This document shows positions 2,888 through 55,790 of a DNA stretch of 64,000 nucleotides, one piece after another (position 1 is the stretch's first letter; each line of letters opens with the position of its first letter). Source of the stretch: Adenophora triphylla var. japonica (Eukaryota > Streptophyta > Magnoliopsida > Asterales > Campanulaceae); assembly GCA_022495995.1 (NCBI GenBank), contig JAFEMH010000936.1, forward strand, positions 513,856 through 577,855, in the 5' to 3' direction. Below the pieces are notes generated by a model. That model had not been told where the DNA came from, did not search any database, and saw only the letters and a program-made list of their open reading frames with translations. The position numbers and the translations under genes are program-made.

Positions 2888-3117
2888 CTATTCAACATGT
2901 ATTCACAAAATTACTAATCCGCATTACAAATCCGCACATGAAATTCAACAATAAAAACATCCTAATGATGAGAAAGCTAGATTCAGTGCAACGAATTTGA
3001 AGATTATGAAAGGGATTTGGGGGTTAGGGTTAGGAATTGGGCAAAAATCCCATAAACAAATTGCAGATTATAGAGGGAGAGGGAAAAAATGATAGAAGAA
3101 AAAGAAAATTGAGGGTT

Positions 3118-27041: not shown

Positions 27042-27078
27042 TTGTTCGTCAAATATTAATTAGCTCAATTCAGATTTA

Positions 27079-27346
27079 CTCCCTCCGTTCCATTAATAAT
27101 TTCACCTTTTGTCATTTTGAGTGTTTCAGTTAAAGCTTCACCTTTCCTTTTTTGGCAAAGAATCTTTACTATTTTCTCCACTCATTCTCTCTCCTATTTC
27201 ACTATTACACTAACAATACTTTTCAAATTTACTATTTCCTCCACTCATTCTCTCTCCTATTTTACTATTACGCTCACAACATTTTCTTCACCCTTAATTT
27301 GCATGCCGAAACTAAAATTGTGAACTAAATATTGGGACGGAGAGAG
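27079..27346. mobile_element. Stowaway-like MITE
   Basis: CTCCCTCCGTTCCATTAATA at the left and ATTGGGACGGAGAGAG at the right, with TA on both sides. It contains an internal near-repeat of ACTCATTCTCTCTCCTATTT. Confidence 0.75.
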
Positions 27347-27480
27347 TATTTATTAAGTTAAATTATTAAAAAAGAATTCTAACATAATTCTAATCATTAA
27401 TCTCACTCAAAAGAAAACTAACCCTAAAATTACATCGTCCATAATTCTTGATGGAGACAATAAAGATTAAATTGATATAC

Positions 27481-27670
27481 CCTCTATTCTATTCCGTAAT
27501 AAATGTCAAAATTTTTATTTTTATTTGTCCCAAAATAAATGTCGCATTTTCAAATAATTAAAGTGGCTTAGTGCAGTTTTAATATTATACAAGTTATGTA
27601 AAAACTAATAAAGCATCATTTTTTTTTAAAGCATTAACTAATCAACTGCACCATTTATTATGTAACAGAG
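27481..27670. mobile_element. Probable MITE remnant
   Basis: CCCTCTATTCTATTCCGTAA at the left faces TATTATGTAACAGAG at the right, with TA-like flanks. The ends are degenerate. Confidence 0.45.
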
Positions 27671-27908
27671 TACGTGAGTTTCACACAAATTCGAATTAAT
27701 TCATGATTACACTACTATAATCTCGCATTTTGATTTTAGGATTGAGACTCACACTTTCGTCATGTTTCGTTAAGTTTATGACTGAAGTTATTAGTTTTGA
27801 ACTTAACTAACAAACAAAATAATCGGAGAGGACGAAACTGAGATTGTGTAATACTTGTCTCGTGCGAGACAACCTTTACAAAAGGTGGGTTGATTTCCTT
27901 TTCTTCTT

Positions 27909-28455
27909 GCTAAAATCTGGGGAGAAACGCGTTTCTCCGTAACTTATGGAGAAACGGGGCCCGACTTGTCGCGCGACAATGGAGGCCAAGGCTTTTGGAT
28001 ATCCAGAAGCTTATGAAAGTGATATCCAGAAACCTTCAAAATGAATATCCAGAAACTTTCAAAATGTTTCTGGATATTCATTTGATGGTTTCTGGATATA
28101 CATTTGAAGGTTTCTGGATATTCAGAAACCTTCAAAATGAATATCCAGAAACTTTCAAAATGTTTCTGGATATTCATTTGATGGTTTCTGAATATACATT
28201 TGAAGGTTTCTGGATATCCAGAAACCTTCAATAAGCAATTTCTGGTCTTGGCCTTGGATTTGGCTTCAAATCTATTTTTTCTGGATATCTGTCCCAAAGG
28301 CTTCTGGATATCCGTTCCAAAGCTTCTGGATATCCAGAACCCTTTGAGACTGATATCCAGAAATTTTTTTCTGGTTATCAAACGCATAGCTTCTGGCTAT
28401 TAAAAACACGTTTCTCCATAGTTATGGAGAAACGCATTTTTCAGCAGACCTACTC
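27909..28455. mobile_element. Palindrome-array element G, copy 2
   Basis: A 547-bp relative of 26594-27041 with the same ends (GCTAAAATCTGGGGAG ... CAGACCTACTC), the same CGACTTGTCGCGCGACAATG block and a longer inverted array of CTGGATATCCAG units. The flanks TTTCTTCTT and TTCCTTCTT are a 9-bp duplication with one mismatch. Open frames across it only translate the repeat. Confidence 0.7.
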
Positions 28456-30045: not shown

Positions 30046-30765
30046 TGTTGTGAAATTGGGGGGATCACCACATCCACTAGCCCATACTAGCAGTCATCAA
30101 CATGGAGAAAAAATAAATCAACACATGATAATATGAAAGAACAAGAACACCGATAATTTGTTAACCCGGTTTACCACCACCCGTGGCTACATTCGGAGGC
30201 ACCAAGCCAGGATATTACTATAATAGTATATGAAAGATTACAACTTTATATATGCACTCACACAGATCTAGCATAGTAACTCTCCATGAGCAATCTCTCA
30301 TATATATTATCTCACCTCCCCAAGAACGCACAAATAACATGGTCATGGCCGGATTGTAGGATCGCCCCCATGGCTCTCCTGGGCCCCCGACCCCCCCCCT
30401 TTCTAGACACTATTTTGTGGCTCCCTTTGATATCCTAACTCTCTCCTCTTGGGTACAAATATTATGGTGGTAGTCACAATGTATTTATAGGGATACAAAA
30501 TCTACTCCTAATCAAAACCTGATTTATCCGGAGTCCTTGAGACGGAAGGAGTATCACTTTAATTAGGAATACTAATTTGTTACCGAAATTAATTCCACTC
30601 CAAGACTCCTTACACGCCTTTGCAGAAAATCCGTCCCCGTCAATCTGTTTACTTGGGCGGTCGCCCACCTCCTCTATGGGCGGTCGCCCACCACAACAGT
30701 CCGCTCCGATTTTCTGCTCCTCCATGATTTTGATCCTCACCTTGGTTTTGGCTCCAATCCCAACA
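30046..30765 (-). repeat. 3' LTR of element D
   Basis: A 720-bp LTR from TGTTGTGAAATTGG to CCAATCCCAACA. Palindromes lie at 30654-30667 and 30677-30690. Confidence 0.9.
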
Positions 30766-31906
30766 ATCTCCCACCTGGAGACATAAACCACCATTGTGAC
30801 ATGCTCCTATCATACTCCCACCTGAGAATGATCCACCAAATATTTTTTACCACCATGTTGAGCCTCCATGCTCCTCCACCATGAGCCTCCACGCCTAAGT
30901 AATAAAGGCGAGTGGAAACCGAGCGACGCTTCAACCTCTCCGTGTTAGATCCTTCTTGCCTCCCCAAATCAACTTCTACCTTGATTTATTTGCAAGACTA
31001 ACTTCGCCTTCTCCCTCCTAGATCCACTCCCCTTGCAATGCTCCCCATGAAACTCGGACACACCTTGCTTCTTGCATTGTCTTCTTGTGGTCTTTTTCCT
31101 CGCTCTCTGTTAGGTACTTGTGACTGTCTCCTTGCTGGCCAGCTACACATTGTCACCTCTCCACCCTAACACACCGTTTATTGATGTCTCTCCTTTTTTA
31201 CACCAACAGGCCGATCTCCAAGCCTCTTGCTTCCACCCGGAACGAAATTGATGTTGTCGGTAGAATACAACATCCTCCTTACCCCTCATCCGTCGTTTGC
31301 GAGAAGTCCTCCTCTTCCCACGTGGTCTAACCGGCTTATACCACTCACCTTTGCAAGAAGAGATTGTATCAAAATAGGAAACAAATCTGCTGCAGAATTT
31401 TCCTCCCCGACACATGGGCGGTCGCCCACCACCCCATGGGCGGTCGCCCAAGATGAAAAAAACTCCGAGCCAACCTACTGGACAAGTGGGCGGTCGCCCA
31501 CCACCACCTGAGCGGTCGCCCAACACGACAGTGTCCTCCCCGACGTTTCCTCCTTGATCTCACCAACTCCTCCGACTTAGACTCCTTTTCTTTCATATTT
31601 TTCTCCAACCACCTTGACTGTCCCAAAAACCCTTGAACATCTCCAGATCCATCTTGATCTCTGCATCTCCAAAATTCCACCTCAAATTTCTGCAGATCTC
31701 AATAAGAGACAAACGAACTCTTCAGACTTCCTGATCTTCCGCACGATTGTGAACCTATTTGGCACGTGTCTTGCTTCAACCATAAACCCTAGAAGCTCTC
31801 AAATCCCTGCACGTCTTCCACACGAAGAATCTGCACGAAAAATCTGTTGTCTCTTTTCTTCACCTTGGATCTCTCCTAGATCTCGAACCAAAGCTCTGAT
31901 ACCAGT

Positions 31907-32632
31907 TGTTGTGAAATTGGGGGGGATCACCACATCCACTAGCCCATACTAGCAGTCATCAACATGGAGAAAAAATAAATCAACATATGATAATATGAAA
32001 GAACAAGAACACCGATAATTTTTTAACCCGGTTCACCACCACCCGTGGCTACATCCGGAGGCACCAAGCCAGGATATCACTATAATAATATATGAAAGAT
32101 TACAACTTTACATATGCACTCACACAGATCTAGCATAGTAACTCTCCATGAGCAATCTCTCATATATATTATCTCACCTCCCCAAGAACGCACAAATAAC
32201 ACGGTCATGGCCGGGTTGTAGGATCGCCCCCATGGCTCTCCTAGGCCCCCGACCCACCCCACCCCCCTTTCTAGACACTATTTCGTGGCTCCCTTTGATA
32301 TCCTAACTCTCTCCTCTTGGGTACAAATATTATGGTGGTAGTCACAATGTATTTATAGGGATACAAAACCTACTCCTAATCAAAACCTGATTTACCCGGA
32401 GTCCTTGAGACGGAAGGAGTATCACTTTAATTAGGAATACTAATTTGTTACCGAAATTAATTCCACTCCAAGACTCCTTACACGCCTTTGCAGAAAATCC
32501 GTCCCCGTCAATCTGTTTACTTGGGCGGTCGCCCACCTCCTCTATGGTCGGTCGTCCGCACAATCAGTCGCTCCGATTTTCTGCTCCTCCATGGTTTTGA
32601 TCCTCACCTTGGTTTTGGCTCCAATCCTAACA
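31907..32632 (-). repeat. 5' LTR of element D
   Basis: A 726-bp LTR; TATAAATA at 32350-32357 (minus). One full palindrome (32522-32535) and one decayed copy (32545-32558) lie upstream of the TATA box. Confidence 0.9.
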
Positions 32633-37880: not shown

Positions 37881-39621
37881 GTGAATGAACGCCCTCCGAA
37901 AAAACACAACTTTCCGTTTTGTTTGTTTATCTTTTTTAAAATTTTGAGTTTTGGGAGTCGCCACGCCGTTTTTAAAGGAAAACATTGAAAAACCTTTTTT
38001 AAATAGAATTTGGGTTCGGGAGTCAGGTTACGTGTTGGGAAGAACTTGTGAGTTCACCCAACACGCCTCTTTCGAGACTTTCAATCAAACATTGGACAAT
38101 TATAAACATTCAAAGTGTGTGCGATTTGTGTCAATAAGCAGGGCATGCAAACTTGGATTTCATTGATGGCACTTCAGAAACTGGATACAACTTGTGAGCC
38201 ATGACAGGGGGCCACACCCTTTACAAATGATGACTTGTATTACAAGGCAGGGGCTGAGACAACCTGCTCATGAAGCTCTGATGTCGTCCGACACAGGACT
38301 TCCTCAGAAAGGGATGTCGGATGACAGGAAGCCTCCTGGTCAGATTGCCTCTTACAACACCAAAGCTACTCTGGAATTGGAACAAGATTATTTTAACTAA
38401 GAAAAGACACTATTCAGGGTCTAAGCTCAGTTTGGGGTTGATTAGAGTGAGCAAAGTCAAGATTGACTTTTAATGATACGGATGTCATATGACATAGGAC
38501 ACCCAAGGCTGTCCATGTCATGTGACAAACCGCCTCCATCAATGGATTGCACCCAAAGAGATCTTAGGTTCCCCAAATAGGGTTTAAATGAACTAAAACT
38601 ACTATTTAAACATAGCTTTGAGTCACAAAGGGAACCAATCTGAGTGGATCTGAAGTCCTTGAAAGCCAGATAGCTCTTTGGGAACTCTATGTCGTATGAC
38701 ACAGGATCCTTTGAGGGGTCCCTGTGTCGTCCGACACAAGCAGCCTATTTCAGTGCCCTTTAGTCAGATTGATCCCACCTTGTTCTCAATGCAAGACTAA
38801 GCTATATTATTAACTAAAAGCAGTAAAATAGTAACACTACGTGAGTATTATGGGAGGATCACATGGCTTTAATGGCCAAATGTGATAAATCACATATCTA
38901 TGGCCATTATCATGTAGCCATCTCCTCCTAACTCAAAGGAAGCTAACCAAGATGCAAACTTTAATGGTGCTAAGGCCACCAGATGTTCAGATCTGAGGTG
39001 GGGAGAAGTGAATATGGAAGATTCACCTCTCCACCACCTTTATCATGCAAAATCCCAAATATTTCACATAATATCAAGACATGTAAACATGAAAGATGAT
39101 ATAGATGAATATGCAAGAGTTAATCAGAGAGAGAGAGAGAGAGAGGGTTTAGTGGCTACCTATTGTAGTCCACAAGGTAAAGGCACCAATAGTATGGTGT
39201 TTACCCCTTCAAAACACCAACAAAGGAAGTATCTCTTTGGATCTTGACTTGGATGTGTGCGTGTGTGAGGAGGGAGGTGAGTGTGTGTGTAAGAGAGAGA
39301 GGGTGAGCCTCTATTTTGACAGAGTTTCCTTACTTTCCCCCCTCCAAAATGATCAGCCATGCCCTTTATTTATAGGCATGCTGATGGGAGATCCCATGTC
39401 GGACGACAGAAAGTTTCCACCGCCTTGAGGTCGTCCTATGTCGGACGACACCGTACATCTTTGTGACAACTTGGGCCGCAGGAAGGCAGGCCCAATGGAT
39501 CAAGGAATGAATGGATTATTTTGGGCTAAAAATGCTTTTTAGCAAATAATATGAGCCCCAAAAAATTAATGCCAATCATGGAGAGCGGACTCAAAGCACG
39601 AGTTCGGGCGGGGTACTCACA
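37881..39621 (-). repeat. 3' LTR of Tat-like element A
   Basis: On the minus strand it starts TGTGAGTACCCCGCCC (39621) directly after the polypurine tract CCGAGGGGCTC. It contains TATAAATA (39367-39374) and ends soon after GGCGTGGCGACTCCC (about 37955), a block also found in LTRs B and C near their 3' ends. The exact left boundary is uncertain. It holds about eight copies of a TGTCGNNCGACA palindrome, two of them close upstream of the TATA box. Confidence 0.65.
38282..39450. promoter_or_regulatory. Family-A palindromes TGTC-NNNN-GACA in the LTR
   Basis: Copies at 38282-38293, 38315-38326, 38483-38494, 38516-38527, 38690-38701, 38725-38736, 39397-39408 and 39439-39450. The intact form is TGTCGTCCGACA or its reverse. 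Diverged copies differ mostly by CG changed to CA or TG (for example TGTCATATGACA), as expected from methylcytosine deamination. The copy at 39397 is 22 bp from the TATA box. Confidence 0.7.
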
Positions 39622-39839: not shown

Positions 39840-41470
39840 TGACTGTTCCAAGGGGAGTCACCCGAGGTTTGACTGTATTTGGGAGTCACCCAAGGATTTG
39901 ACTGTATTTGGGAGTCACCCGAGGTTTGACTGTGTTCTGAGTCACCCAAGGATTTGACCGCATTTGGGAGTCACCGAGGTTTGACTCATGTTGGGAGTCA
40001 CCCGAGGATTTGATTGTATTTGGGAGTCACCCGAGGTTTGGCTGTGTTGGGAGTCACCCGAGGGTTTGGCGCATGTTGGGAGTTACCCGAGGATTTGACT
40101 GTGTTGGGAGTCACCCGAGGTTTGATCAGTATTTGGAAGTCACCCAGGGATTTGACTATATTTGGGAGTCACCCGAGGATTTGGATCATGTTGGAGTCAC
40201 CCAGGATTGACTGTATTTGGGAGTCACCCGAGGATTTGACTGCATTTGGGAGTCACCCGAGGATTTGACTGTATTTGGGAGTCACCCAAGGATTTTGATC
40301 AGTGTTGGGAGTCACCCGAGGTTTGGACTGTGCATTGGGAGTCACCCGAGGATTTGTATGTTGGGAGTCACCCGAGGTTCGACTCGTATTTGGGAGTCAC
40401 CCGAGAATTTGATTGTGTTGGGAGTCACCCAAGGTTTGATCAGATTGGGAGTCACCCGAAGTTTGACCGTGTTTGGGAGTCACCCGAGGTTTGACCGTAT
40501 TTGGGAGTCACCCGAGGATTTGGTTGTGTTTGGGAGTCACCCGAGGTTTGATCAGATTTGGGAGTCACCCGAGGTTTGATGTATGTTGAGAGTCACCCGA
40601 GGATTTGACTTGTATTTGGGAGTCACCCAAGATTTTTTGATCGTATTTGGGAGTCACCCAAGGATTTTGATGTATTTGGGAGTCACCCGAGGTTTGATCA
40701 GATTTGGGAGTCACCGAGGTTTAGATGTGTTGGGAGTCACCCGAGGTTTGATGTTGTTTGGGAGTCACTCGAGATTTGGACTGTATTTGGGAGTCACCCG
40801 AGGATTTGATCAGTTTGGGAGTCACCCAGGTTTGACTCATTTGGGAGTCACCCGAAGTTTGATTGTGTTGGGAGTCACCCGAGGTTTGACTGTGTTGGGA
40901 GTCACCCGAGGATTCGATCGTATTTGGGAGTCACCCGAAGTTTGGTTGTGTTTGGGAGTCACCCGAGTTTTGATCAGTATTTGGGAGTCACCCAAGGTTT
41001 GAATGTATTTAGGGAGTCACCCGAAGTTTGATCAGATTGGGAGTCACCCGAAGTTTGACTGTATTTGGGAGTCACCCGAAGTTTGACTGTATTTGGGAGT
41101 CACCCGAGGTTTGATTGTATTTGGGAGTCACCCGAGGATTTGACTGTATTTGGGAGTCATCCGAAGTTTGACTGTATTTGGGAGTCACCCAAGGTTTGAC
41201 TGTATTTGAGAGTCACCCGAGATTTTGACTGTATTTGGGAGTCACCCAAGGTTTGACTGTATTTGGGAGTCACCCGAGGATTTGACTGTATTTGGGAGTC
41301 ACCCGAAGTTTGACTGTATTTGGGAGTCACCCGAGGTTTGACTGTATTTGGGAGTCACCCGAGGTTTGACTGTATTTGGGAGTCACCCGAGGTTTGACTG
41401 TATTTGGGAGTCACCCGAGGATTTGACTGTATTTGGGAGTCACCCGAGGTTTTGACTGTATTTGGGAGAC
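39840..41470. repeat. About 28-bp minisatellite array of element A
   Basis: Nearly 60 tandem copies of a 25-29 bp unit built on TTTGGGAGTCACCCGAGG and TTTGACTGTA. The right end is more homogeneous than the left. Open frames across it (for example 40217-40579) are repeat translations. Tandem arrays between pol and the 3' LTR are known in Retand/Tat elements. Confidence 0.92.
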
Positions 41471-41606
41471 CCGCGATTTTGAGAAAAACTGAGGGACGGG
41501 TGTATTTACCCAAATGAAATGATGAATAATGATGATAGACAGTCGCAAGGGACTGGCAAATGGATCAGGGGTAAACAAAGAATATCACCCCTTTCTGGAA
41601 CGCCTC

Positions 41607-41650
41607 TGTCGTCCGACATGGGGCTTTCCCTAAACTGTTTTAATTAAAAC
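41607..41650 (+). promoter_or_regulatory. Antisense-gene promoter of element A
   Basis: The family-A palindrome TGTCGTCCGACA (41607-41618) is followed after about 20 bp by TTTTAATTAAAA (41638-41649). The PMD start codon lies 146 bp after the palindrome. A weaker copy, GTCGTAAGACA, is at 41657. The same palindrome-to-box spacing is used in the LTR. Confidence 0.5.
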
Positions 41651-41764
41651 AGTTAGGTCGTAAGACAGAGGGTTCAAACTAAGAGCAGCCGCCGAGTTTT
41701 GAGAACAGAGAAGAAGAAAAATTTCAAATTTTCTTTCCAATTTTTGATTGAAATCAAATTAACG

Positions 41765-42704
41765 ATGCCTCCGCGAGCGGAATCAAGAAGGCAAGTGCAA
41801 CGATCGTTGTCCGAGAGGAGGAAGCTCGTCGATCGGAACAAACGGAAGAAATTTCCGGAGGGGAATGGGCTCTATCCGAGCCTTTATTTCCATATTTCCA
41901 CCGCAGAGCCAATGGGGGTAAGTATTTTAAACCATCAACTCTTCCCTTTTCTTTTTCGAAGTTGGATTTCTAGGGCTCGAGATAGAATTTGGGGAAAATT
42001 GCACCCAAAGAGAAATTGCATGCTTGGAATGAAATGCATTAAATCAAGAAAAGACTTCTTTTTTGTTCTTTTGAAAGAATTATGTGATTTTTAGAGATCG
42101 AAAATGCACACAAGTAAAAGAATGCACACACCATTATGAGTATGTTCTGATACCTGTGCTGTGCTTACCTGCAGGCTTTGCGGACCAAGGGGTCCCCTGA
42201 GGCGATTGCTACGATTTGGGGCATTCTTCCCGGTTCTTCCGATTTGCCCGACAGTCCCAAGGGCTTGATATTTGCTGCTGGCCTCGACCCATTCTTTACT
42301 GCCGTCGGAGAGTTTGGGGACACGCCTAGGAGCGTGGAGCTGGTCAGGGCCTTTAGGCAGTACTGGTGGGACTCTACCCACACTTTTCATCTGTCTTGGG
42401 GTGAGTCCACCATCACTCCCTATGATTTCACCGCCATCACCGGTCTGCGGTTCACGGGCAGACCTATTTTTTCTGAGGATCCAGGTGTCCTGAGCCCGGA
42501 GGTCATTAGAGCACTGACAGGCCTGACCCTTCGCCCGAAGGGCAATGGGGTCCCACTGGCGGACCTGCATTCGGCCTTGACGCAGCAGTGTCGTCTCTTC
42601 TCTGAGGGTGTTGCTACAGTCACGGATGAGCAGTTGGCTAGAGCGTTTGCCTGGGCTGGATTCTCCGACACCCTGTTCTGTAATGCCTCTACTACTGTGA
42701 CAAA
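41765..42704 (+). pseudogene. Plant mobile domain (PMD) gene of element A, truncated
   Basis: Exon 1 (41765-41917) encodes MPPRAESRRQVQRSLSERRK and ends at GG/GTAAGT. Exon 2 starts at 42175 after CTGCAG in the same phase and reads PKGLIFAAGLDPFF, then FRQYWWDSTHTFHLSWGEST, then DFTAITGLRF, then DEQLARAFAWAGFSDTLF. These are PMD hallmarks (WWDxTHTFHxxWGExTxTxxD). After ACAAA at 42704 the gene is cut by the LTR of element B. PMD proteins occur in plants as host genes (MAIN/MAIL, linked to transposon silencing) and as transposon passengers. Here the gene lies antisense to its host element. Confidence 0.8.
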
Positions 42705-44548
42705 TGTGTACCCGATTTTTTTTTTTTGAAAATCAAACGGAGTCGCCACGCCATTTTTATTTTAAGGGCCAAAACTTTGAAAAATGCCCGGGATTAGAGA
42801 TTTGGGTTCGGAGGTCACGTTACACGCCGGGAAGAACGTTAGTGTTCACCCGGAATGCCTCGTAAAACGAGTCTTCCAAGCATTAAAAATCATTTGTGTG
42901 TGTGTGTGTGTGTTTTGGCCAAAATAAGTTGAAACTGAAAAGTAAAAATTGGGAGCTCTTTATTAGACTTTGAATAAATCCCATGATTTTTGGTGTGATT
43001 TTTGGGTTGAGTTTTGGGACTCAAAAGATTTTTTGAAGTTGAAAACCAATTCTGCCAGAATGAAAAAGGCAGTGGACACTTTATTTTAAAATGGGTTTAA
43101 GGGCTTACAAATCTCAGAATCTGGGGAAAGTCCGAGAATAAAAGTTGTTCAAAACACCCTAAATAAGCTTTCTATAAAAGAACTTTCCCACTTGGAGATG
43201 ATTTGGTGGACCAAAACCTTCTGGAAATCTCAGATATGAAATCTGGACTTCCAGGGACTGATGAACTGACCTTTGAAAGAAAATTTGAAAAAGGGAGTTT
43301 TACCACGCAAAAAATAAAGTAAAAATATTTCTGGAAAGCTCTAGATGTTGGCTACAAAAAGTGTTTTGTAGTCAACACCAAATTCCAAGTTTCTGTATGT
43401 CCAAAAAATTAGATCATGGACAGAGGTCTTAGAGAAAGGCTACTGGACAACAACTTCCTCTTGAAGAAAAACATGATTTTAAAGGGGGTTTGGCATCCAT
43501 GCTTGTCCCCATTTCCCTAAGCTTTGATTAGTGATCACTAAACATTTTAGTGGTGATCTACTATATCAAGCTATCCCTGGGGTACATTAGGACTTAAGCA
43601 TTTCATTTGCTTGGGAAGGGGAATTTTATCCTTTGAAAATGAGATTTGATGTATGAAAATGATTTTTAGGGTTTTGAAAATATGTTTGCAAGAAAGTAAA
43701 GACACTTTGAAAGTAATGTTGATACTTGTAGAGGATCATCCATGGAGATGAACTTCCATGGTGATCCTCTTGGATCTAAGGCAAGAGGATGAACAAACTA
43801 CATTTTGGAGTTTGAAAATGCTTGCATGGATGAAAGAGATTTAGGGTAGGAAGAGGGAGGTTATACCTATCTTCTTTGTGTTTTGTGTTTGAATGGATTC
43901 AAGGCTTGAAAGTGTTTAGGGTTTGAATGTGTTTAGGGTTGGTGATTAGAGTTGGTCAAAGAGAAAACAAGTAGATAACAATGAAGTCCTCTATGTTTTC
44001 TCTCTAATCCTCCTCCTAAGGGGTGATTTGAGCTTAGGTTAGTGTATGTATGAGAGTGTGTATGAAAGTGATTTGAAAATATTTTGAGTGAGTGGGATTT
44101 GGGAAAGATTCAAGAGAAAATGGAGGCAATTCAAGTGAATTCCCACTGTTTTCTCCCTATTTTTCGCCAAGGTGCAGTTGCAAATTGTGTTGTTCCTCCT
44201 TATTTCTGTGACTGAAGGCCTCAATTTATAGGCACTGAGAATGTCATTCTCATCCGCGCGGATCCTCTTGTAGGCGTGCACTGTTCATTAAATGCTGCTC
44301 CAGGCTTTGGACAGGAAGAATAAAATTCAAATTAGACAGCCAGAAAATGTTCCAGCCACTTCTATTTCGGGTTTTTGACCATTTCTTTTGCTTTTTTGAT
44401 TCTTTTCCATGGTTTATCTTTAAATGGCAATTCCCAATCTACCCTCACTTTGTTAGGAATGTTAGGAATGTTAGAAATGTTAGAAATGTTAAAACTTTCG
44501 TTAATTTTCTAACGAAAATACTAACAACTCAAATTGGAGCACTTACAG
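42705..44548 (-). repeat. 3' LTR of Tat-like element B, inserted in the PMD gene of A
   Basis: On the minus strand it starts TGTAAGTGCTCCAATTTG at 44548, after the polypurine tract GAGGGGCTAC, and ends GGGTACACA at 42705. ACAAA precedes it on the plus strand as the candidate target site. TATAAATT lies at 44223-44230 and the palindrome ATCCGCGCGGAT at 44252-44263, 21 bp upstream. The start matches LTR C (TGTAAGTACCCCAATCTG), so B and C are related but opposite in orientation. Confidence 0.7.
44252..44263. promoter_or_regulatory. Family-B palindrome in LTR
   Basis: ATCCGCGCGGAT, a perfect 12-bp palindrome 21 bp from the TATA box of LTR B. The 10-bp core TCCGCGCGGA recurs at 46040 and 52263. 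Confidence 0.6.
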
Positions 44549-46039
44549 TAGCCCCTCGGCGACGGCGCTTTCGAAGGAAGCGGGGTCGTCGATAAGAGTA
44601 AGGCTCCATATTTGACAGGATGATCAAGTGATCGAGTGGCTGAACCTAGCAATAGGCTACCTACGTATCCCCAGTGGGAATCAAGCCGGCCGTAGTTCGG
44701 GTCTTTGACCCTGGAATGACTGTTTTAGGATGTCAATCTTGGTGAGCGAGTTCTGCAGTCGATTGCTTAGAGAAACTCTGCTGGGGATAAGAGATGACCA
44801 TTTTGGTCTGATAGCCGAAGTTGTACATCCGCTCTGCTGGGGATAGAAATGACCATTTTGGTCTGATGGCTGAAGTTGTATATCCGCTCTGCTGGGAATA
44901 GGAATGACCATTTTTGGTCTGATGGCTGAACCTAATGATAGGCTACCTACGTATCCTTAAGAGGAATCAAGCCAGTCGTAGTTCGGGTCTTTGACCCTGG
45001 AATGACTATTTTGAGGCGTCAACCTGGTAATGATGGCGTTTTAGGTGCCTCGTCCCTTAAAGATGATGGCGTTTTAGGTGCCTCGGACCTTTGGTGATGA
45101 TGGCGTTTTAGGTGCCTCAAACCTTAATGATGATGGCGTTTTAGGTGCCTCAAACCTTGATGATGGCATTTTAGGTGCCTCGAACCTTGATGATGGCGTT
45201 TTAGGTGCCTCGAACCTCGATGATGATGGCTTTTTAGGTGCCTCGGACCTTGATTTGAAATGTTTTCCCTTAATGGTTTGGGATGGATGGTCCTTCGGTG
45301 GACTTCGTCTGCTGCCGGAGGAGAGGGTGACCGTTTTGGTCGGGTGGCTGGACCTAATGATAGGTTACCTACGTATCCTTAAGAGGAATCAAGCCAATCG
45401 TAGTTCGAAAGCTGCTCGGGATTTCGTTGGCTTTTGTTGGAGAAAAATCGGGCTTACGTTTTACGGCCATGGATGATAATGGGGAAGGAAACGGGATTTC
45501 GTCAACTTCGCTGGGGATTTTGTTAGCCTTTGCTGGGGAAGACGGGCTTACATTTTACTTCCGTTGATGATTTTGATGAAAGAAACGGGATTCCGTTATC
45601 TTTCTCGGGGAAGTCGGACTTACGTTTTACTGTCGTTGATGATTTTGATGAAAGAAACGGGATTCCGTTATCTTTCTCGGGGAAATCGGACTTACGTTTT
45701 ACTGCCGTTTGATGATTTTGATGAAAGAAACGGGATTCCGTTATCTTTCTCGGGAAAATCGGACTTACGTTTTACTGCCGTTGATGATTTTGATGAAAGA
45801 AACGGGATTCCGTTATCTTTCTCGGAGAAATCGGACTTACGTTTTACTGCCGTTGATGATTTTGATGAAAGAAACGGGATTCCGTTATCTTTCTCGGAGA
45901 AATCGGACTTACGTTTTACTGCCGTTGATGATTTTAATGAAAGGGGGTTAACTTTGGTTAACTCTGTTAAGTTGAGGACTAAATTGCAGAGTCCTGAAAT
46001 TTTAAAGGGCAAAAGGGTCTTTTTGACCCTTCAATCGTG
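44549..46039. repeat. 3' internal region of element B with three tandem arrays
   Basis: After the polypurine tract come a unit of about 62 bp (CCGCTCTGCTGGGGATAG, about 44760-44925, nearly three copies), a 24-30 bp unit (GATGGCGTTTTAGGTGCCTC, about 45025-45255, seven to eight copies) and a 72-bp unit (GAAACGGGATTCCGTTATCT, about 45480-45945, five to six copies). The block GGCTACCTACGTATCC plus CGTAGTTCGG occurs three times between the arrays. The open frames only translate the repeats. Confidence 0.85.
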
Positions 46040-46078
46040 TCCGCGCGGAGGGATTTGAATCCCTGACTGGTTTTAAAA
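46040..46078 (+). promoter_or_regulatory. Antisense PMD promoter of element B
   Basis: TCCGCGCGGA (46040-46049), then 21 bp, then TTTTAAAA (46071-46078). A CT-rich leader and the PMD start codon follow at 46203. The palindrome is identical to that of LTR B and the spacing is the same. Confidence 0.55.
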
Positions 46079-46202
46079 AGGCGCCGCCCTCTCCTCTTCT
46101 TCTTCATAGTCTGTTTCGAAAATTACGAGAGAGAGGGAGATTTTCTGCCATTTTCGCCCAAGAAGCTTCGAAATCCTTCCGTTTTCTTTGGTTTTTCGAG
46201 CA

Positions 46203-49196
46203 ATGGAACACGCGGGAGTAGCCATTCAAGGCCAAGGACGTGGTCCGGTAGCGGAGAGGCGATTGGAGCTTGTTCGAATGAGGAGGCATTACACTCTTTC
46301 GCAATCGATGGCGGAGGAGCACTACCCTGATGCGTGGCAACATTGGGCCACTGATCCGAGTCTCCGAACGGTATACTTCGAATCTCTTCACTTCCTTTGT
46401 TGATTTCTTGCTTGAAATTGATTTTTGGTGATTTTTTTTTTTGAAAATTCGAATAATTGATGTTCTTGGCCTTGGATTTTGATTTTGATGCTTTGCATGT
46501 TGTAATGAGTATATGGGTAATGCATTTTGCTTGAAAAAAGAATGGGCATTTTGCCAAAAAAATTTTTTTTAAAAAAAATTCGAAAATTGCATTTTAAAAT
46601 TCAAAAATTATAATTTTTTTTTTGACACTGAAATTGGATTTTTGATGATTTGCATGTTGCAATGTGTTTGAAAAGAATGGGCATTTTGCCAATTTTTTTT
46701 TGTTTTTTTTTGAAATATGAAATGATAAGGAATTCGCTCAAATTCGGGACGGACATGAATGTATGCATGTATGCCTCTTGTAGGATTTTTTTTTTTTTGT
46801 AATGGGATGATGATATGAATGTATGTATGCATAGGATTTTTTTTTTTTGAAAAGTGGGACGGATTTTTGATTCCGTTGATTGAATAAACGACTTGTGGAA
46901 AGACTGTTTATTTGTGCTTTTTTATGAAAAATGGGACGAAGTTTTTACTTCCGTTGACTCGATATTATTGACATGCTTTCTGTATGAATGAATGGTATTT
47001 GTTGAAAAAACTCTTTTCTTTGGTGCGAGAAAAATGGGGGCTAGGTCCGTTGTATGCTGTTACGCTGCCCGATTTTTTGCAAAACTCTATGATGCATATG
47101 TATGCTCCTTTTTTTTTGAATGCAAATGCCAAGTGAATTTTTTTTTGACATTTTTGTTTCTCTCTTTTTTTTTGTTGCAGGGCGGAAACAATTTCGTGAA
47201 GGAGCAGCTGAACAAGATGAAGACTCGGGGATCGGTGGAGTCTGTGATTTATTTGTGGGACCGGCTTCCGGTTTTGGGCAGAGGGGCGATGATGAGTCCC
47301 AGACAGATCGTCATTGAGACCGGATTGTACGAGTTCATTGAGTGCTTGAGGGGATTGGTCAAGTTCCCTAAGAGCAAGGGACTGATCTTTACTTTGGCAC
47401 AACATTGGTGGGACGTGACCCACACATTCCATTTTTTCTGGGGTGAGGCCACGGTCACACCTTCCGACTATGCTGCGATTACGGGCCTGTCCTTTAAAGG
47501 ACGGAGTATTGAGTGGAGAGACGGGTACAGTGATATGGATCTGCAGGCCCTTCTAGGATATTCCCCTATTCCCAAAAAGGGGATAGGGATGGAGTACGCG
47601 GTGGTCCATGGGAAGATCGTGGAGAGTATTGGGAGCTACATGGCTGGGGATGAGAGGATAGGCGCTGAGCAGATTGCTAGGGCCTTTTTATGGTTTGCTT
47701 TTTCGAGCACGCTTTTCGGACATGCCGAGGGGACGGCTGTTTTTGCTTTGCTGAGGTCCTTGGAGGACGTAGGGATGGCTGGAGAGATATCTTGGGGAGA
47801 GGCAGGGCTGGCAGAGCTATATTTTGCTCTGGATCGATCTGGCGGAAAAGGTCAATCGGCTCTCGACATGTTTCGAGTTCCCTCTGGAGGTACAAGCTTT
47901 CTTTTTTTGCTTTCCCTCTTTTCTTTAAGCACGTATTCTTTTTCGCACTTAATTGATTGGACCTTTCCCTTTTGCAGGTATGGGCTCTGGAGTTTTTTCA
48001 CGTCACGATGTGGCGGCAGCCGGCGGAGTACATCGGGGCGTATCCGGCCATGCTTTCTTGGTCCAAGTATGCCCGGGAGAAGAAAGGCTCTAGGGGGCGC
48101 ACGACCCTCAAGTACTCGGATTGCCTGCCTTTGACGATGGCTGAGACAGATGAGGGGATCATATTCTACCCTTGGGATCGCTTCGATGTAGAGCAGCTGA
48201 AGGGTGCTGAGAGATGGACCGTGGAGCGGAGGATCTTGAGAGGCTTGACTTGTGACGTGTATTATCTGGGGGAGAGAGTGACGCGCCAACATGGCGTGGG
48301 TGCACCTGCGATGGCTCCGGTGGAGCCCCCTGCTGACATGATGCATCCGAGTGAGAACTCGGAGACCTGGGATGAGTATTGGGGTGGCCATCACCACTCG
48401 AGGTTCGTGGCGATTGAGGAGTACTCGCGATTTGTCTTGTGGAGGCTGAAGACGCCTCAGGTTCTTGAGAGAGAGGGATTGGGGGTCGTGCGGTACCCTC
48501 GATCGAGCTTTTCGTATGTCCAGGACGGGGTCAGGCTGAGAGTACAGATCCCTGTCCTTGATCGGGTTCCACGAGCTTTCCGGCCTCGTCCGGATATGAA
48601 GGTATGGCCTCTCCTTCTCCTTCCCTTTTTTTTGCTTCTGTCTTTTCCTCTCTTTTTTCTGTCATCATTTTTCGCCTTAATTATCTCTAACGCTTTTGTT
48701 TCCGTACAGTTCCCGGCCAAGGTGGTGGAGAAGCTGACAAACCAGGTGATCGGGGCCAAGAGATTTATCAAGAACATGGTTATTTGTGGGTCTTCTCAGG
48801 GCAGGAGGAGACGAGCACGCCCTGCGCCCTGTCGAGAGGGAGACTTCCCCTATTTCTTCCGAGCCTTCTTCGGAGACTCCTCTTTCTCCTCTCATAGATC
48901 CCAGTGTGGTGTTGCCCTCGGACCACGTCATTCTCGGGGATCCGTATGGACAGGGGCATGTCTGGCATCACGGCGGGTCTTCTTCGCACGTCCGGGAATC
49001 CGACGCATTTTCGTTCGGATACGACTTCTTTGCTGATCTTGGCTTGCCGTATCAGGGTGTGCCGGTTGGTCCCGACGAGCCTTCCTCCAGAGACGAGGAT
49101 GATTCTGAGCCCGAGATATTCGTGGCTACTGAGGAGGCGGGCCCGAGCCGCAAGAGGGATCGGGGGAAAGCGCCAGCCACCGAGGACTCTGACTGA
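46203..49196 (+). pseudogene. PMD gene of element B, four exons, two frame breaks
   Basis: Exons: 46203-46370 (MEHAGVAIQGQGRGPVAERR), 47181-47889, 47978-48601 and 48710-49196, all with GT-AG borders. The PMD core is in exon 2 (KGLIFTLAQHWWDVTHTFHF, then SDYAAITGLSFKGRS, then ERIGAEQIARAFLWF). It continues in exon 3 (VWALEFFHVTMWRQPAEYIG, then YSRFVLWRLKTPQVLEREGL). Exon 4 encodes an acidic, Ser/Glu-rich tail ending KRDRGKAPATEDSD. One extra base near 47870 and a one-base shift near 48785 are needed to join the frames, so as written it is not translatable in full. It is antisense to element B. Its role is unknown; an effect on silencing is speculation from the MAIN/MAIL relatives. Confidence 0.78.
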
Positions 49197-49383
49197 CGAT
49201 TTTCTGAGACCGACTTCTGAGATTGTACCTATTTATTTCTTTTTTGGCAGATACAGTTTTTTTTTTCTTTATGCACACTCTCTTTTTCTTTCTTTTTTTT
49301 TGAATGTAATAATTTAGGATTTTATTTTATGAATGCAATGTTATATGAATGCGAAGTTGCATGAGCCCGGGTTTTTTGGCAAG
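49197..49383 (+). other. 3' flank of the PMD gene
   Basis: T-rich; no coding sequence. It runs into the LINE target site. Confidence 0.4.
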
Positions 49384-49399
49384 GGTGTGAGTGTCTGGT

Positions 49400-52166
49400 G
49401 ATACGTGATGAGATTATAACTATTATTTCCGCCTATGCACCACAAGTAGGGTTGGATGCATCTATTAAACAAGTGTTCTGGGAAGATTTGGAGGAGGTAG
49501 TGCAACGAGTACCTAGTGGTGAGAAATTAGTGATTGGTGGTGATCTGAACAGACATGTGGGGTCTAGTCGACATGGCTTTGAGAGCATACATGGAGGTTT
49601 TGGTTTTGGAGAGAGGAATGAAGCAGGAAATAGTATCCTGGACTTTGCGTTGGCATATGACTTGAGTATAATGAACACTTGGTTCAAGAAGAGAGAATCT
49701 CACTTGGTGTCCTATAGGAGTGGAGGTAATGCGAGTCAGATTGACTTCTTCTTAGTAAGAAATACTTGTAGAAAGAGTTATACAGATTGCAAGGTTGTTC
49801 CGGGTGAGAGCACAGCAACTCAACATAGATTGGTGGTACTTGATTTTCGAAGTAAGAGAATTTCGAGGAAGAGAAAATCACAGGTAGACCCTAGAATCAA
49901 GTGGTGGAGACTTCAAGGGGAAAATCAACCAAAATTTGTAGCTAAGATGGTCGATACCGGTATTTGGGCGGATAATATGGAGGATATGGATATAGATTCG
50001 ACTTGGACTAAGATGGTACATACCATAAAGGAGGTGGCGAAAGAAGTCCTTGGAGAATCTAGAGGAAATGGGCTACCAAGTAAGGACACATCATGGTGGA
50101 ACGAGGAAGTAAAACAAGCAATAAAGGGCAAGCGAGAATGCTACAAATTATTGGGGAAATGTAGGAGCGACGAGAACTATGAGAAGTATAAGGAAGCTAG
50201 AAGAGATGCTAAGAAAGCAGTAAGAGACGCAAGAGCAAAGGTGAATCAGACACTTTATGATAAGTTGGATACAAAAGAAGGGGAAAAGGACATCTACAGA
50301 CTCGCTCGTATGAGGGATAAGAGGACACGAGATATTGGGACGGTTAAATGTGTGAAGGATGTAGACCAAAGAGTTTTAGTCGGGGATAAAGAGATAAAAG
50401 ATAGATGGAGTTCGTACTTTGATAACTTGTTCAATGGCGGTCAAGAGCAGGATGTTGGAGATTTAAATATCTCTTCGAGTATGGTTAATCGAGATTTTAT
50501 ACGGAGAATTCGAAAGAGTGAAGTGGAAATGGCAATGAAAAAGATGAGATTGAAGAAAGCCGTTGGACCGGATGGTATACCAATTGAGGTTTGGAGATGT
50601 TTCGGGGAGAGGGGAGTAGATTGGTTAACAACGCTATTTAACAAGATATGGAGAGTTAACACAATGCCATTGGAGTGGCGGAAGAGTACTCTGATCCCTT
50701 TGTATAAGAATAAAGGTGATGTCCAAGATTGTGCCAACTATCGGGGGATCAAACTAATGAGCCATACTATGAAACTTTGGGAAAGAGTAATTGCACAAAG
50801 GCTGAGAAAAATTGTGGATATTTCGGATAACCAATTTGGGTTTATGCCAGGAAGATCGACTATGGAGGCAATATATCTTATGAGACAAATCATGAAGAAA
50901 TATCGGGATCAAAAGAAAGATTTGCATATGGTTTTCATTGATTTGGAGAAGGCGTATGATAAAGTGCCAAGAGAGGTACTTTGGTGGGCATTAGCAAAGA
51001 AGGGTGTTTCAAAGAAATATGTTGATATTATCAAGGACATGTATAATGGAGTTAGTACTTGTGTACAGACTAGTGTTGGGAAGACTGAAGAGTTTCCTAT
51101 AAAGATTGGAGTGCATCAAGGTTCCGCACTTAGCCCCTTTCTCTTTGCTTTGATAATGGACGAATTGACGAGGTCAGTCCAAGATGATATACCAAAGTGT
51201 ATGTTGTTCGCAGATGATATTGTGTTGATTGATGAGACAAGAGAGGGTGTTGAAAGTAAATTGGAGTTGTGGAGACACACTTTGGAATCTCGAGGTTTTC
51301 GATTAAGCAGAAGCAAGACTGAATATTTGGAGTGTAAGTTTAGCAGAGTTGGAAGTAGGGAGGCAGGGGCGGTCACATTTGATGGAAATATTATCCAAGC
51401 TTCTGAGTTTTTTCGCTATCTTGGATCCATTATCCAAAAGGATGGAGAATTAGATGGAGATGTGGCTCATAGGATTAAAGCAGGTTGGTTGAAGTGGAAG
51501 AGTACTACAGGGTTTCTATGTGATCGTGGCATGCCCAATAGATTAAAGGAAAATTCTATCGCACGACAATTAGGCCGGCATTGCTTTACGGCACCGAATG
51601 TTGGGCCGTGAAACTGTGTCACGTGCATAAGATGAATGTGGCGGAGATGCGTATGCTTCGATGGATGTGCGGTCATACAAAAAAGGATTGATTGGGGAAT
51701 GAGGTGATCAGAGGTAAAGTAGGAGTTGCGCCCATTGAGGATAAAATGAGGGAAAATCGTCTACGGTGGTTTGGACATGTGAGAAGGAGACCGAGTGATG
51801 CACCGGTTAGGAGGCCGGAACAGTGGAGAAATGATAAAATGGCGAGGGGTAGGGGAAGACCCAAACAAACTTGGATTAGAGTAATTGAAAATGATATGAA
51901 TTTACTTGGAGTGGATGAAAGTATGGTGTTGAAGAGGCCGGAGTGGAGGGCAAAAATCCAAGTGGGGGGTTGATTTTTTATATTTTATTTTTTTTATTTT
52001 TTATTTATTTAATTTAATTTTATTTTGTTTTATTTTATTATTATTTTTTATTTATTTATTTATTTATTATTATTTTTTTTTTCACGATAACATATGAGGA
52101 TTCATGTTAGCCGACCCCAAATTATTTTGGGACTAAGGCTTTGGTGTTGTTGTTGTTGTTGTTGTT
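49400..52166 (+). mobile_element. 5'-truncated RTE-type LINE with perfect 16-bp target duplication
   Basis: GGTGTGAGTGTCTGGT lies at both 49384-49399 and 52167-52182. The element has endonuclease and RT but lacks its 5' end. It ends with CCGACCCCAAATTATTTTGG, then ACTAAGGCTTTGG, then (TTG)n, the simple-repeat tail typical of plant RTE elements. 51975-52080 is a T/A-rich tract before the tail. It inserted between the PMD and DUF7745 genes of element B. Confidence 0.92.
49401..51973 (+). pseudogene. LINE endonuclease/reverse transcriptase, one frameshift
   Basis: The frame is open from the truncated 5' edge to 51611. The APE-type endonuclease shows IISAYAPQVG, GGDLNRHVGSSRHGFE and SQIDFFLVRN with QH in place of the usual terminal DH. 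RT shows KKAVGPDGIPIEVWR, FIDLEKAYDKVPREVLWWAL, GVHQGSALSPFLFALIMDEL and the catalytic FADDIVLIDE. A one-base indel near 51550 shifts the frame. The continuation has LLYGTECWAVK, a TGA at 51688, then [20 protein letters not shown] and [20 protein letters not shown]. It has few defects, so it is relatively young, but it is not functional. Confidence 0.9.
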
Positions 52167-52261
52167 GGTGTGAGTGTCTGGTATATGAAATGTTTGGGCA
52201 GGTTTTTGCACAGGTTTCGAGCAGTTGGGATGAATTTTTTTTTTTTGGTGGTGACAAGGAT

Positions 52262-52304
52262 ATCCGCGCGGATGGGTTCGACATCTGGCATGGTTCATTT
52301 ATTT
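52262..52304 (+). promoter_or_regulatory. Antisense DUF7745-gene promoter of element B
   Basis: The family-B palindrome ATCCGCGCGGAT (52262-52273) is followed after about 22 bp by CATTTATTT. The ATG is at 52399. The TATA match is weak, but the palindrome is identical to that in LTR B. Confidence 0.45.
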
Positions 52305-52398: not shown

Positions 52399-53899
52399 AT
52401 GGAGATGTCCAAATTCTCTCTAAAATTGTCCAAAGAAAAGCAAATGTTGTTTTTTGAAAAGTTCAAGGAGTGGTGTAGAGAGATTATGCACGAGAGGAGG
52501 TCATTTTTCGAAGAGAGGTACAAGGTGAAGTGCTTGTGGTCTCTTAAAGAGTTGGTTCCGGACTATGACCTCTTGAGAGCTTCTTCTTCATTTTGGGACA
52601 CTAGAAGGCATGTCTTTTGCCTTTCTTATAATGAAGTGGTGCCGACCGTTGAAGAATTTCGGGCTTTACTTGGTGGCCCGGAGGTGGAAGAGATTGGGAT
52701 TCCTTTGCCCGGAGGGGCTTCTTTTGTTGATAGGTTGTGTAACCTCCTTCTCCTTTCTCCGGAGGAAGCGCAAGGTATGATTCGTAGTCCCGATCATTTT
52801 GACATTTCTGGTCTTCCTGATAGATTTAGGGGCTTAGGCTTGGTGGATGATGCCTATTGGGATGCTTTTGCACTTTGCATGTTTGGTACCTTGTTCATGG
52901 TTTATTCCTTTGGAATTTGTCATCGAGCCCTGTTAGATGTAGTTGTTCACTGTCGCCTGGGCAGAGATGTTGTACCTTTGATCTTGGGAGAGACTTTTCA
53001 TGCTCTCGACAGGCTGGCTACCGGGAGACGGTATATGCACGGGGGCAGCCCATTTCTCTTGACTTTGCGGCTGATGGAGCGCCTGGGGGTTCTTCGGGAA
53101 ACTTCTGACATGATCAAGCCTTGGACATTTGCCAGGAGAGGGGTTTTGGTGGATTTTGATGATCAGGGCTCGTGGGAGCGATGGATGGCTGGTCGCCAGA
53201 CTGAAGATATCAGATGGTCGGTGCCTCATTGGCGGGTGGAGACTCGAAGAGTACTTCAGGATGGGTCTCACGTGGTTATGCTTCCGGGACTTTCTCGGTC
53301 CAGCTTCTACATTCCGGCTCTGGTTCTGAGACAGTTCGTCTTGGAGCAGGTTTCTTTGGAGGACTTTGATGATATAGCCACCAGGGTGGTGGCTTCTGCT
53401 TCTATGGATGATCCTTCGGTGTTTCCATTCCTTTCCCGAGTACGGAGGTATGACGTCTTTCCTCCTCGGGTTATCCTCGAGCGTCAAGACACTGTTTCTG
53501 ACCACTTGGTACCTGGATTGGTACGAGAGGCATTTGGGGGAGACTCAGATGGCTATTTTGAGACGGCGTGAGGCCATTGTGGGTGCGGAGGACCTGACAG
53601 TTTCAGAGAGGAGGAGGGCCGAGGCAAGGGCCAACCCTCACGACAGGAGCGGAGATACTGTGACCGACTATGAGGCTTATGTGAAGAGACAGGAGAGGAG
53701 GACTCCTATGCTACCAGCTAGGCTGCAGGAGATGAGAGATGACGCTAGGGCTACTAAGGCCCTGACAGAGGCTGGTTTGATAGATCGTGTCCCTACACCA
53801 GAGCTTGGTAGGAGGAAGACCGACATTTTTCCTGTTCAGAGGAAGAAGACCCGAAGGGGGAAGAAGAGAGGGGATGCCAGTACGAGTGGCTTGGAGTGA
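52399..53899 (+). pseudogene. DUF7745-type gene of element B, one frameshift
   Basis: I chose the ATG at 52399 (MEMSKFSLKLSKEKQMLFFE); an in-frame ATG at 52333 is possible. The body reads LVPDYDLLRASSSFWDTRRH, then VPTVEEFRALLGGPEVEEIG, then MVYSFGICHRALLDVVVHCR, then RLMERLGVLRETSDMIKPWT. This resembles the DUF7745 domain found in plant transposon-associated proteins. That frame ends at 53571. The next frame continues with DWYERHLGETQMAILRRREA, SERRRAEARANPHDRSGD and a basic end (KKTRRGKKRGDASTSGLE), so a one-base shift near 53500-53525 splits one gene of about 500 codons. The basic tail suggests nuclear or nucleic-acid association. It is not recognised as a host gene. Confidence 0.62.
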
Positions 53900-54362: not shown

Positions 54363-55790
54363 TGTAAGTACCCCAATCTGGATCACCCCCTTTCAAACAC
54401 ACGGGAAACTCCGCAGACTCATCAACGCAGCCTCGGAGACCTCCGGCACTCAAAACCCTCTCAAAACCCTCTCAAACCCCCAACCAAACCAAGGGAGGAG
54501 CCTCTCTGGGATAAAAAGGGACAAAAGGACCTTTTGGGAATTTTCAGGAAATCAGAAAAGCAATTAAGGTCCGTACGGACCTCTTTGTTTCAATGATTAC
54601 TAAATCCCCTTAAAGTCCACAATATTCCCTCAAATCCCGGGAAAAATGATTACTTCCTTGCAGAGTTGGTCCGTACGGACCTCTTTGCATGCAAGATGGT
54701 CCGTACGGACCTTATTGCTCAGGGAACACCATCATTCCAGAATATTCTCCATCATTGCAGATTTCCTCAAATCGAGGAAATCCAAAATTCTGGATAACCA
54801 AGAAGGTCCGTACGGACCTCTTTGCTCCGAAATTTTTACTATAAATAGAGGGCTTCCCCCTCCTCATTTTCACACACCCCCCTCTTCTCTCTTCCTCCCT
54901 TAGCCTTCTGGCTCCCCTCTAAGTCCTCTTGAGGCACTCCCGCCCCCTTTCGGATCCTTCCGAGGCCTTCCGAGCTCCCTTGTGGTGCTCCGAAGCCCCC
55001 CCGAGCGCTCCCGAGACGCTCCCGCGCTGCCCCGAGGCACTCTCGAGGTACTACGAGGCCCCTCGTGGTACTCCGAGGCCTTGCGGTCTTTCCACGGTGT
55101 CCCGGCTCTTTCCGAGTCAAACCGACGATCCCAAACCACGCCGAAACTCTGCCCGAGTGACTCACGCCACCACGACGCACGCCGAACCTCTGCCCGAGTG
55201 ATCCCGACGATCCCCACGCACGCCGAACCTCTGCCCGACGCATGGCCCGGCAGCCTCGGCTCACGCCCAGAAACTCCGTCATGAGCGGACAGGCATCCCT
55301 CCCGAAGCAATCCAGATCACATGCGGAGGAGCGCTACTCAGACCTCAAACACCATTCCCAGGCGGAAGGCAGGACACGAACCAACATTGGTAAGGCTTCC
55401 TTCCATTACTATTTCAATACATTTCCATACATAGCATACAATGTAGACATCCGATCTGGCATGCATTTTTAAAAGCACACACACACACACACACAACATT
55501 TAAAGGATATTAGGGGTATCAGAAAGACTCGTTTTATGAGGCTACTCGGGTGAGCTCTAATATTCTAATATTCTCTTCCTGAGGGGAGTCATCGACCTCA
55601 CGAACTCAAAATCTCATCACACAAAAACGAGTTTAAAATTATCTTTAAAGCGATGCCCTTTTCAATGTTTTGGGCTTAATAAAAACGGCGTGGCGACTCT
55701 ACAAATGTGAAAACAAACGGCGAGACACCTCCAACGCGAAAGATGCCGGATGCGCGGGGCGCGAGGCTGCTCGGATCCGGGTAATTTCGG
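54363..55790 (+). repeat. 5' LTR of Tat-like element C
   Basis: It starts TGTAAGTACCCCAATCTG, related to LTR B, and ends just before the primer-binding site at 55791. TATAAATA is at 54840-54847. Four copies of the palindrome GGTCCGTACGGACC lie upstream at 54568-54581, 54668-54681, 54698-54711 and 54805-54818. The first, second and fourth are followed by TCTTTG and the third by TTATTG. GGCGTGGCGACTC lies near the 3' end (55688), as in LTRs A and B. The right boundary has no clear CA. Confidence 0.7.
54567..54847 (+). promoter_or_regulatory. Palindrome array and TATA box of LTR C
   Basis: Four GGTCCGTACGGACC palindromes (two extend to the 16-bp AGGTCCGTACGGACCT). The last ends 20 bp before TATAAATA. 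A pyrimidine-rich leader (CTTCCCCCTCCTC) follows. Confidence 0.7.

Follow-up and report, generated by a model that had tools for sequence, protein, structure and literature searches.

The 64-kb window analysed here is the right end of contig C936 in the 2.48-Gb genome of Adenophora triphylla var. japonica, and contains long-terminal-repeat (LTR) elements of three families, A, B and C, which fit the Ogre/Tat type of Ty3/gypsy elements. In each of the three families, one family-specific palindrome is found at the promoter regions of the LTR, which gives rise to the gag-pol RNA, and of two antisense genes, namely those encoding PMD and DUF7745 proteins. We consider it somewhat probable (about 55%) that each such family is a self-contained regulon, read by a dimeric nuclear factor that the element would itself encode. 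The evidence comes from the window and from relatives of its elements, for which the genome itself was searched.

Palindromes in the window

The 10-bp palindrome of family B, TCCGCGCGGA, is located at 44253, 46040 and 52263, and these are its sole matches in the 64 kb with one mismatch allowed; in 100 shuffles of the window, the mean number of such matches was 0.41, and three were reached once. At 44252 and 52262 the palindrome takes a 12-bp form, ATCCGCGCGGAT, of which the site at 46040 has the inner 10 bp only. The palindrome of family A, TGTCGTCCGACA, has five exact copies in the window, i.e., one before the PMD gene (41607) and four in LTR A. Family C is known in the window by its LTR only. 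The modules are as follows.

39397-39408, reverse strand: A palindrome TGTCGTCCGACA, LTR promoter, 22 bp before TATAAA
39439-39450 (reverse strand), 38725-38736, 38282-38293: further copies of TGTCGTCCGACA in LTR A
41607-41618, forward strand: A palindrome before the antisense PMD gene, 20 bp before TTTAATT; same layout in the relative L052
44252-44263, reverse strand: B palindrome ATCCGCGCGGAT, LTR promoter, 22 bp before TATAAA (44225-44230)
46040-46049, forward strand: B palindrome TCCGCGCGGA before the antisense PMD gene, 21 bp before TTTTAAA (46071-46077)
52262-52273, forward strand: B palindrome before the antisense DUF7745 gene, 25 bp before TTTATT (52298-52303)
54568-54818, forward strand: four C palindromes GGTCCGTACGGACC (54568, 54668, 54698, 54805), LTR promoter of C, the last one 21 bp before TATAAA (54840-54845)

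A preliminary description of this DNA had placed the A palindrome in LTR A and 146 bp ahead of the ATG of the antisense PMD gene, and the B palindrome in LTR B and before both antisense genes of B, with no further exact copies in that element. All of these positions were recovered, and within the window B has no further copy even at one mismatch; that the A site is present in several copies in LTR A is an addition. The description had also given 20-22 bp as the distance to an AT-rich box, which is right for LTR A, A PMD, LTR B and B PMD but not for B DUF7745. Similarly, its label 'TATA' suits the LTR boxes but is loose for the antisense ones, as their letters above indicate.

Family B across the genome

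A genome search with the LTR promoter of B yielded 4159 candidates, of which the best 40 were scored; 30 loci were fetched, one being that of the window. Among these 30 LTR copies, the palindrome is exact in 21, has one mismatch in eight and two mismatches in one. Agreement with the majority base amounts to 0.95-0.98 in the palindrome itself; it is 0.958 across the whole LTR and falls to 0.81-0.89 in the flanks, taken as 20 bp to one side and 10 bp to the other; that is, the palindrome is a conserved island amid variable flanks.

Seven further B elements, with LTR sites 13.7-18.1 kb apart, were then taken. At up to one mismatch they contain 28 matches, which correspond to 15 LTR promoters, seven antisense PMD promoters and six antisense DUF7745 promoters, and none in the stretches read lies outside these three promoter types. 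Absence of the palindrome from the antisense promoters of other members was the result by which the preliminary description would have been contradicted; in B, the PMD site is present in all seven further elements and the DUF7745 site in six, the exception having one base missing within the site. Each B promoter has a single palindrome. With the window included, the AT box follows the palindrome after 22-23 bp at eight LTR sites, after 21 bp at eight PMD sites and after 21-26 bp at seven DUF7745 sites. The flanks differ between the promoters and among copies; the palindrome is retained.

Two other inverted repeats adjoin the B sites. One, AAGGGTC-5 bases-GACCCTT, lies directly upstream of the palindrome in all seven fetched PMD promoters and also in the window (46005-46035). 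Another, between palindrome and TATA in LTR A, LTR B and B PMD of the window, was discarded, as by eye it is not kept among the 30 LTR copies.

Predictions for families A and C

The window lacks a DUF7745 gene of family A, and the A palindrome was predicted to lie upstream of such genes elsewhere. This prediction was borne out in both copies that bear the gene. In a relative of A (L052, 10 kb read), TGTCGTCCGACA occurs exactly at four places only, namely in the LTR, in the PMD promoter (1608) and upstream of DUF7745 (4541 and 4576), compared with none in 300 shuffles. The DUF7745 protein of this element is 35% identical to that of B. A second A-type DUF7745 gene, in L040, shares 84% identity with the L052 gene across 153 residues, and upstream of the L040 gene are two exact A palindromes and one with an altered centre. 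Two further loci are less complete. L042 has only an upstream fragment. In L051 the A LTR sites are present, and the antisense genes of A are not visible because the locus is taken up by another element. The number of palindromes per A promoter is one to four; in both the LTR and the PMD promoter of A, TGGG follows the palindrome.

From its LTR in the window, family C was likewise predicted to have its palindrome at the promoters of antisense genes elsewhere. A genome search with the LTR promoter of C gave 3557 candidates; the best 40 were scored, and all are 98-100% identical. In the 10 kb of one C element (L054), eight matches to GGTCCGTACGGACC were found at up to three mismatches, none of them having more than two, as compared with a shuffle mean of 0.04 and a maximum of 1. 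Four are exact and lie in the LTR promoter, two lie before DUF7745 (one and two mismatches, 31 bp apart) and two before the antisense PMD gene (one mismatch each, 32 bp apart); there is no match elsewhere in the 10 kb at this threshold. Both antisense genes of C thus have the predicted site before them. By eye, TTAAATAA is found ~33 bp past the palindromes of C PMD, and CATAAATG ~20 bp past those of C DUF7745. C promoters have one to four copies, which have a flank of about eight letters in common, so recent duplication is possible in this family. The family-matched pairing of LTR and antisense promoter proposed in the preliminary description is thus supported, and extends to the DUF7745 genes of family A and to family C.

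A fourth palindrome, in family F

In a genome search for PF24924, the best 118 of 15523 candidates were scored, and 700 bp around the start was fetched for 12 of the 118. These 12 DUF7745 starts look like one further family, F. Before them lies TCTCGNNCGAGA, exactly in eight, with one mismatch in three and with two in one; both members of the palindrome pair are exact in two. Genome-wide, the exact pair was counted 4646 times, and its reversed control not at all. The 50 places listed fall into three classes by spacer: 14 with that of DUF7745, 30 with a second and six with a third. Within the same 50, second-spacer sites are paired in the same orientation at nine places, with 5.6-7.0 kb between them, as expected of LTRs, and four of the six third-spacer sites lie 4.3-4.6 kb from a second-spacer site. 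We infer that the second and third classes are the LTR and PMD promoters of F. A genome search for PF10536, in which the best 115 of 36014 candidates were scored (149 matches), gave no PMD candidate among those 115 that could be assigned to F. At least 115 PMD candidates lie above the cut-off; they include intact high-scoring frames, clustered on contigs C739, C2537 and C3696, that are host-gene-like in appearance.

Form and specificity of the palindromes

All four palindromes have the form N3-CG-NN-CG-N3, namely TGTCG-NN-CGACA (A), ATCCG-CG-CGGAT (B), GTCCG-TA-CGGAC (C) and TCTCG-NN-CGAGA (F). Tested against 47 promoter stretches, the four gave no exact off-family match. Each family's motif is enriched in its own noncoding DNA and differs from those of the other families, and in most modules the gap to the AT box is 20-26 bp. 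When 12-base palindromes with any two bases at the centre were listed without guidance over 249 kb, A and B ranked next after AT repeats; this sequence had been selected with these families in view, and it contains many other palindromes that recur at one homologous position.

In A and C promoters the sites are often paired, ~31-35 bp apart, as before the DUF7745 gene of A (4541/4576 in L052) and at 3040/3071 and 6639/6671 in the C element L054. This spacing is about three helical turns, hinting at possible cooperative binding.

Other palindromes were encountered as well. TTGTCGCGCGACAA, at 26652 and 27967, was set aside, since by eye it lies inside an inverted-repeat-rich repeat that is not recognised as an LTR. 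This repeat (26600-28450) contains the long perfect palindromes CTGGATATCCAG, GAAACGCGTTTC and TTGTCGCGCGACAA, and parts of it recur beside a B element in L038/L039. GGGCGACCGCCC was noted in both LTRs of a further gag-bearing Ty3-type element. TGGGCGGTCGCCCA, which also has a CG-NN-CG core, occurs three times per LTR of a Ty3-type gag element in L051 (3809-3917 and 9438-9546), and its 12-base core recurs in a repeat of the window at 30655-32523.

The antisense proteins

The antisense genes belong to the Pfam families PMD and DUF7745. DUF7745 is under purifying selection, with ratios of nonsynonymous to synonymous substitution (dN/dS) of 0.18-0.58 in ten pairs of five copies, and in A and B its C-terminal tail is basic and resembles a nuclear localization signal. 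Protein searches returned 4 and 2 relatives. One scan of viral contigs gave no match to DUF7745.

As to host PMD proteins, the available text of PMC9899485 and PMC7156037 reports that MAIN and MAIL1, with PP7L, are needed to express genes with the 'DOWN' motif, which is present in 25 of 26 commonly down-regulated genes. According to that of PMC5418596, MAIN and MAIL1 are also required for transposon silencing.

Proposed mechanism and alternatives

We propose that a dimeric nuclear factor of the element would bind the palindrome; the likeliest candidates are DUF7745, PMD or the two in combination. Binding by this factor would positively auto-regulate both regulators, and would activate or de-silence the LTR in trans. 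Palindrome and reader would have diverged together, so that one family would not activate another. A dimer is suggested because the site is symmetric, and an element-encoded reader because the site differs between families yet matches within each. DUF7745 and PMD are the candidates because both genes lie under the site, and because DUF7745 is under selection and has the basic tail. We lean to activation because of the part that MAIN and MAIL1 with PP7L play in expressing 'DOWN'-motif genes, as far as described in PMC9899485 and PMC7156037. The chances appear even that a factor from the antisense PMD and DUF7745 genes reads a family-specific N3-CG-NN-CG-N3 site both in the promoters of the genes that encode it and in the LTR, with palindrome and reader co-diversifying as a recognition code that would keep the families separate.

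Several observations weigh against the proposal of an element-encoded regulon. In the proteins, no DNA-binding domain was recognised in PMD or DUF7745, and the fold prediction for DUF7745 was unusable (mean predicted local distance difference test score, 32). In the relative L053, a diverged copy of the A DUF7745 promoter is without palindromes; no DUF7745 or PMD gene is detectable at this locus, and its LTR promoter retains one exact and one one-mismatch A site. At A DUF7745 the palindrome and the box are 47 bp apart; for the PMD and DUF7745 promoters of C, the AT-box search string had no match within 70 bp. The C DUF7745 site is one mismatch from both the C form and the B form; in F, the exact site is present in only eight of 12 promoters, and both exact members in only two. 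The evidence for A and C comes from one to four elements per promoter type. Special CpG retention in the B palindrome is unsupported (80 of 90, versus 502 of 524 elsewhere in the LTR). Lastly, the regulatory sign could be the reverse, because MAIN and MAIL1 also silence transposons, according to the available text of PMC5418596.

The palindromes might instead be bound by host transcription factors, a site being maintained at every promoter of the element so that all its units fire in the same cells, with different families using different factors of one class. Such a class would suit the common architecture of the sites and their core-promoter position, and the lack of a recognised DNA-binding domain in the element proteins points the same way. 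Against it, the site varies among families of one genome, yet matches at three unrelated promoters within each; in addition, where a DUF7745 promoter lost its gene it also lost the site while the LTR sites stayed (L053, one case). We regard host factors as an unlikely explanation, albeit one to be taken seriously. The same element-encoded reader might also act as a repressor, holding down the expression of both itself and the LTR so as to control copy number. The distribution of sites would be identical, initiation might equally be blocked from a site lying directly before the core box, and the need for host MAIN and MAIL1 in transposon silencing (available text of PMC5418596) would agree with this sign. 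Host PMD proteins are, however, also needed to activate motif-bearing promoters (as given in PMC9899485 and PMC7156037), and an element would probably gain little from self-silencing in a genome that already silences it. Repression seems quite improbable to us.

It could also be that the copies have no regulatory meaning and are remnants of internal duplication, or of gene conversion between the LTR and the internal region. The common flank of about eight letters in C and the TGGG after the palindrome in the A LTR and A PMD would be explained in this way. In B, however, the palindrome persists among flanks that differ from promoter to promoter and from copy to copy, its distance to the AT box is similar, and it is found nowhere else in the elements; moreover, A and C show the same pattern in other letters. 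Such an origin is very improbable.

Layout of the window and identity of the elements

Element B has broken element A inside the antisense PMD gene of A. C, the third LTR element, has palindromes from 54568 and extends rightward to the contig end.

37930-39628, ends approximate, reverse strand: LTR of A, which reads leftward; searched as an LTR query, it is found at both ends of the A relative L053; in L051 and L052 the promoter end was matched
41765-42702, forward strand: antisense PMD gene of A, 5' part, cut by B; PF10536 E 5.7e-12 on 42151-42726
42703-44540, reverse strand: LTR of B, ~90-98% identical to the LTR pairs of the seven fetched elements
46203-49193, approximate, forward strand: antisense PMD gene of B, with introns; PF10536 E 2.2e-20 on 46992-48131, and a weaker match, below cut-off, on 47957-49033
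49365-51608, forward strand: reverse transcriptase frame of long interspersed nuclear element (LINE) type, an insertion splitting PMD from DUF7745 of B; RVT_1 E 2e-36
52399-53568, forward strand: antisense DUF7745 gene of B; PF24924 E 4.7e-07; C-terminal part in another frame, to 53896

Next to one LTR of B are both antisense genes, whose orientation is opposite to that of the LTR promoter and pol. Relatives of B provide gag (PF03732, L040), RNase H and integrase (L050) and LTR pairs (seven elements). RT_RNaseH and RVT_3, i.e., two RNase H kinds, are found in both B (L050) and A (L052); for C in the window, Pfam gave only a weak integrase match. A second, archaeal-type RNase H adjoining that of pol is a feature of Ogre/Tat-lineage Ty3/gypsy elements. 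The elements fit this type because of gag, the two RNase H kinds, integrase and the antisense PMD gene, PMD being found in 57% of Ogre elements (available text of PMC6317226). Tandem arrays lie between the LTR and the antisense PMD gene at 39860-41490 (A, ~28-bp units) and 45456-45998 (B, 72-bp units).

Comparison with known systems

One closely related arrangement is that of the Tat-clade accessory genes (Grande gene23, RIRE2, and the open reading frames of Retand with TRP28), which are antisense and lie between pol and the 3' LTR. B has its genes in this aORF-3R position, antisense to gag-pol. Nearby tandem repeats and a suggested regulatory role are further likenesses. Such antisense genes, the Grande gene's own promoter and nuclear protein, and the guess at a regulatory role are thus already known from the available text of PMC7264820 and PMC11963269. 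The Retand domain is TRP28, whereas here it is PMD and DUF7745, and the same text describes no cis-motif common to LTR and antisense promoters for Grande, RIRE2 or Retand. PMD-bearing Ty3/gypsy elements are likewise known as Ogre elements with extra PMD reading frames (PMC6317226) and as Gypsy-encoded PMD-A clades (PMC5418596), and PMD proteins connect such elements with a host silencing pathway (PMC5418596); the available parts of both papers leave the function open and contain no promoter analysis. The role of antisense genes in plant Ty3/gypsy elements is similarly left open in what is accessible of PMC7264820, PMC11963269 and PMC6317226. In the literature searched, in which subscription papers are mostly not covered, we found no family-specific cis-element linking LTR and antisense promoters. 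Such an element makes the role of these genes directly testable, that is, which protein binds and whether the LTR is turned on or off.

The Arabidopsis MAIN/MAIL1-PP7L system also ties PMD proteins to promoters with a common short motif. In the available text of PMC7156037 and PMC9899485, it concerns host genes, no direct recognition of the 'DOWN' motif is described, and the printed MORC1 motif CATGCAGTTT differs from all the palindromes described here. If our proposal is true, PMD of retroelements, and perhaps MAIN and MAIL1 of the host too, would have an ancestral role in sequence-specific promoter control.

With VANC of VANDAL (Mutator-like, MULE) elements, the nearest known case in its logic and the analogy drawn in the preliminary description, the likeness would be that of an element protein recognising a short, family-differing motif in its own noncoding DNA. 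VANDALs are DNA transposons, and the motif printed for VANC (YAGTATTAY) is not a palindrome and forms dense tandem arrays; binding and demethylation have been demonstrated for VANC (all as in the available text of PMC5735166), while the present case is one of sequence comparison. Here there are no dense tandem arrays, i.e., one palindrome per promoter in B and one to four in A and C. Thus, because arrays are missing in B and binding is only predicted, a VANC-like working is possible and we do not class the system as VANC. If self-encoded recognition were confirmed, these palindromes would be the retrotransposons' independent answer to the problem that VANC solves, that of acting on oneself without acting on everything.

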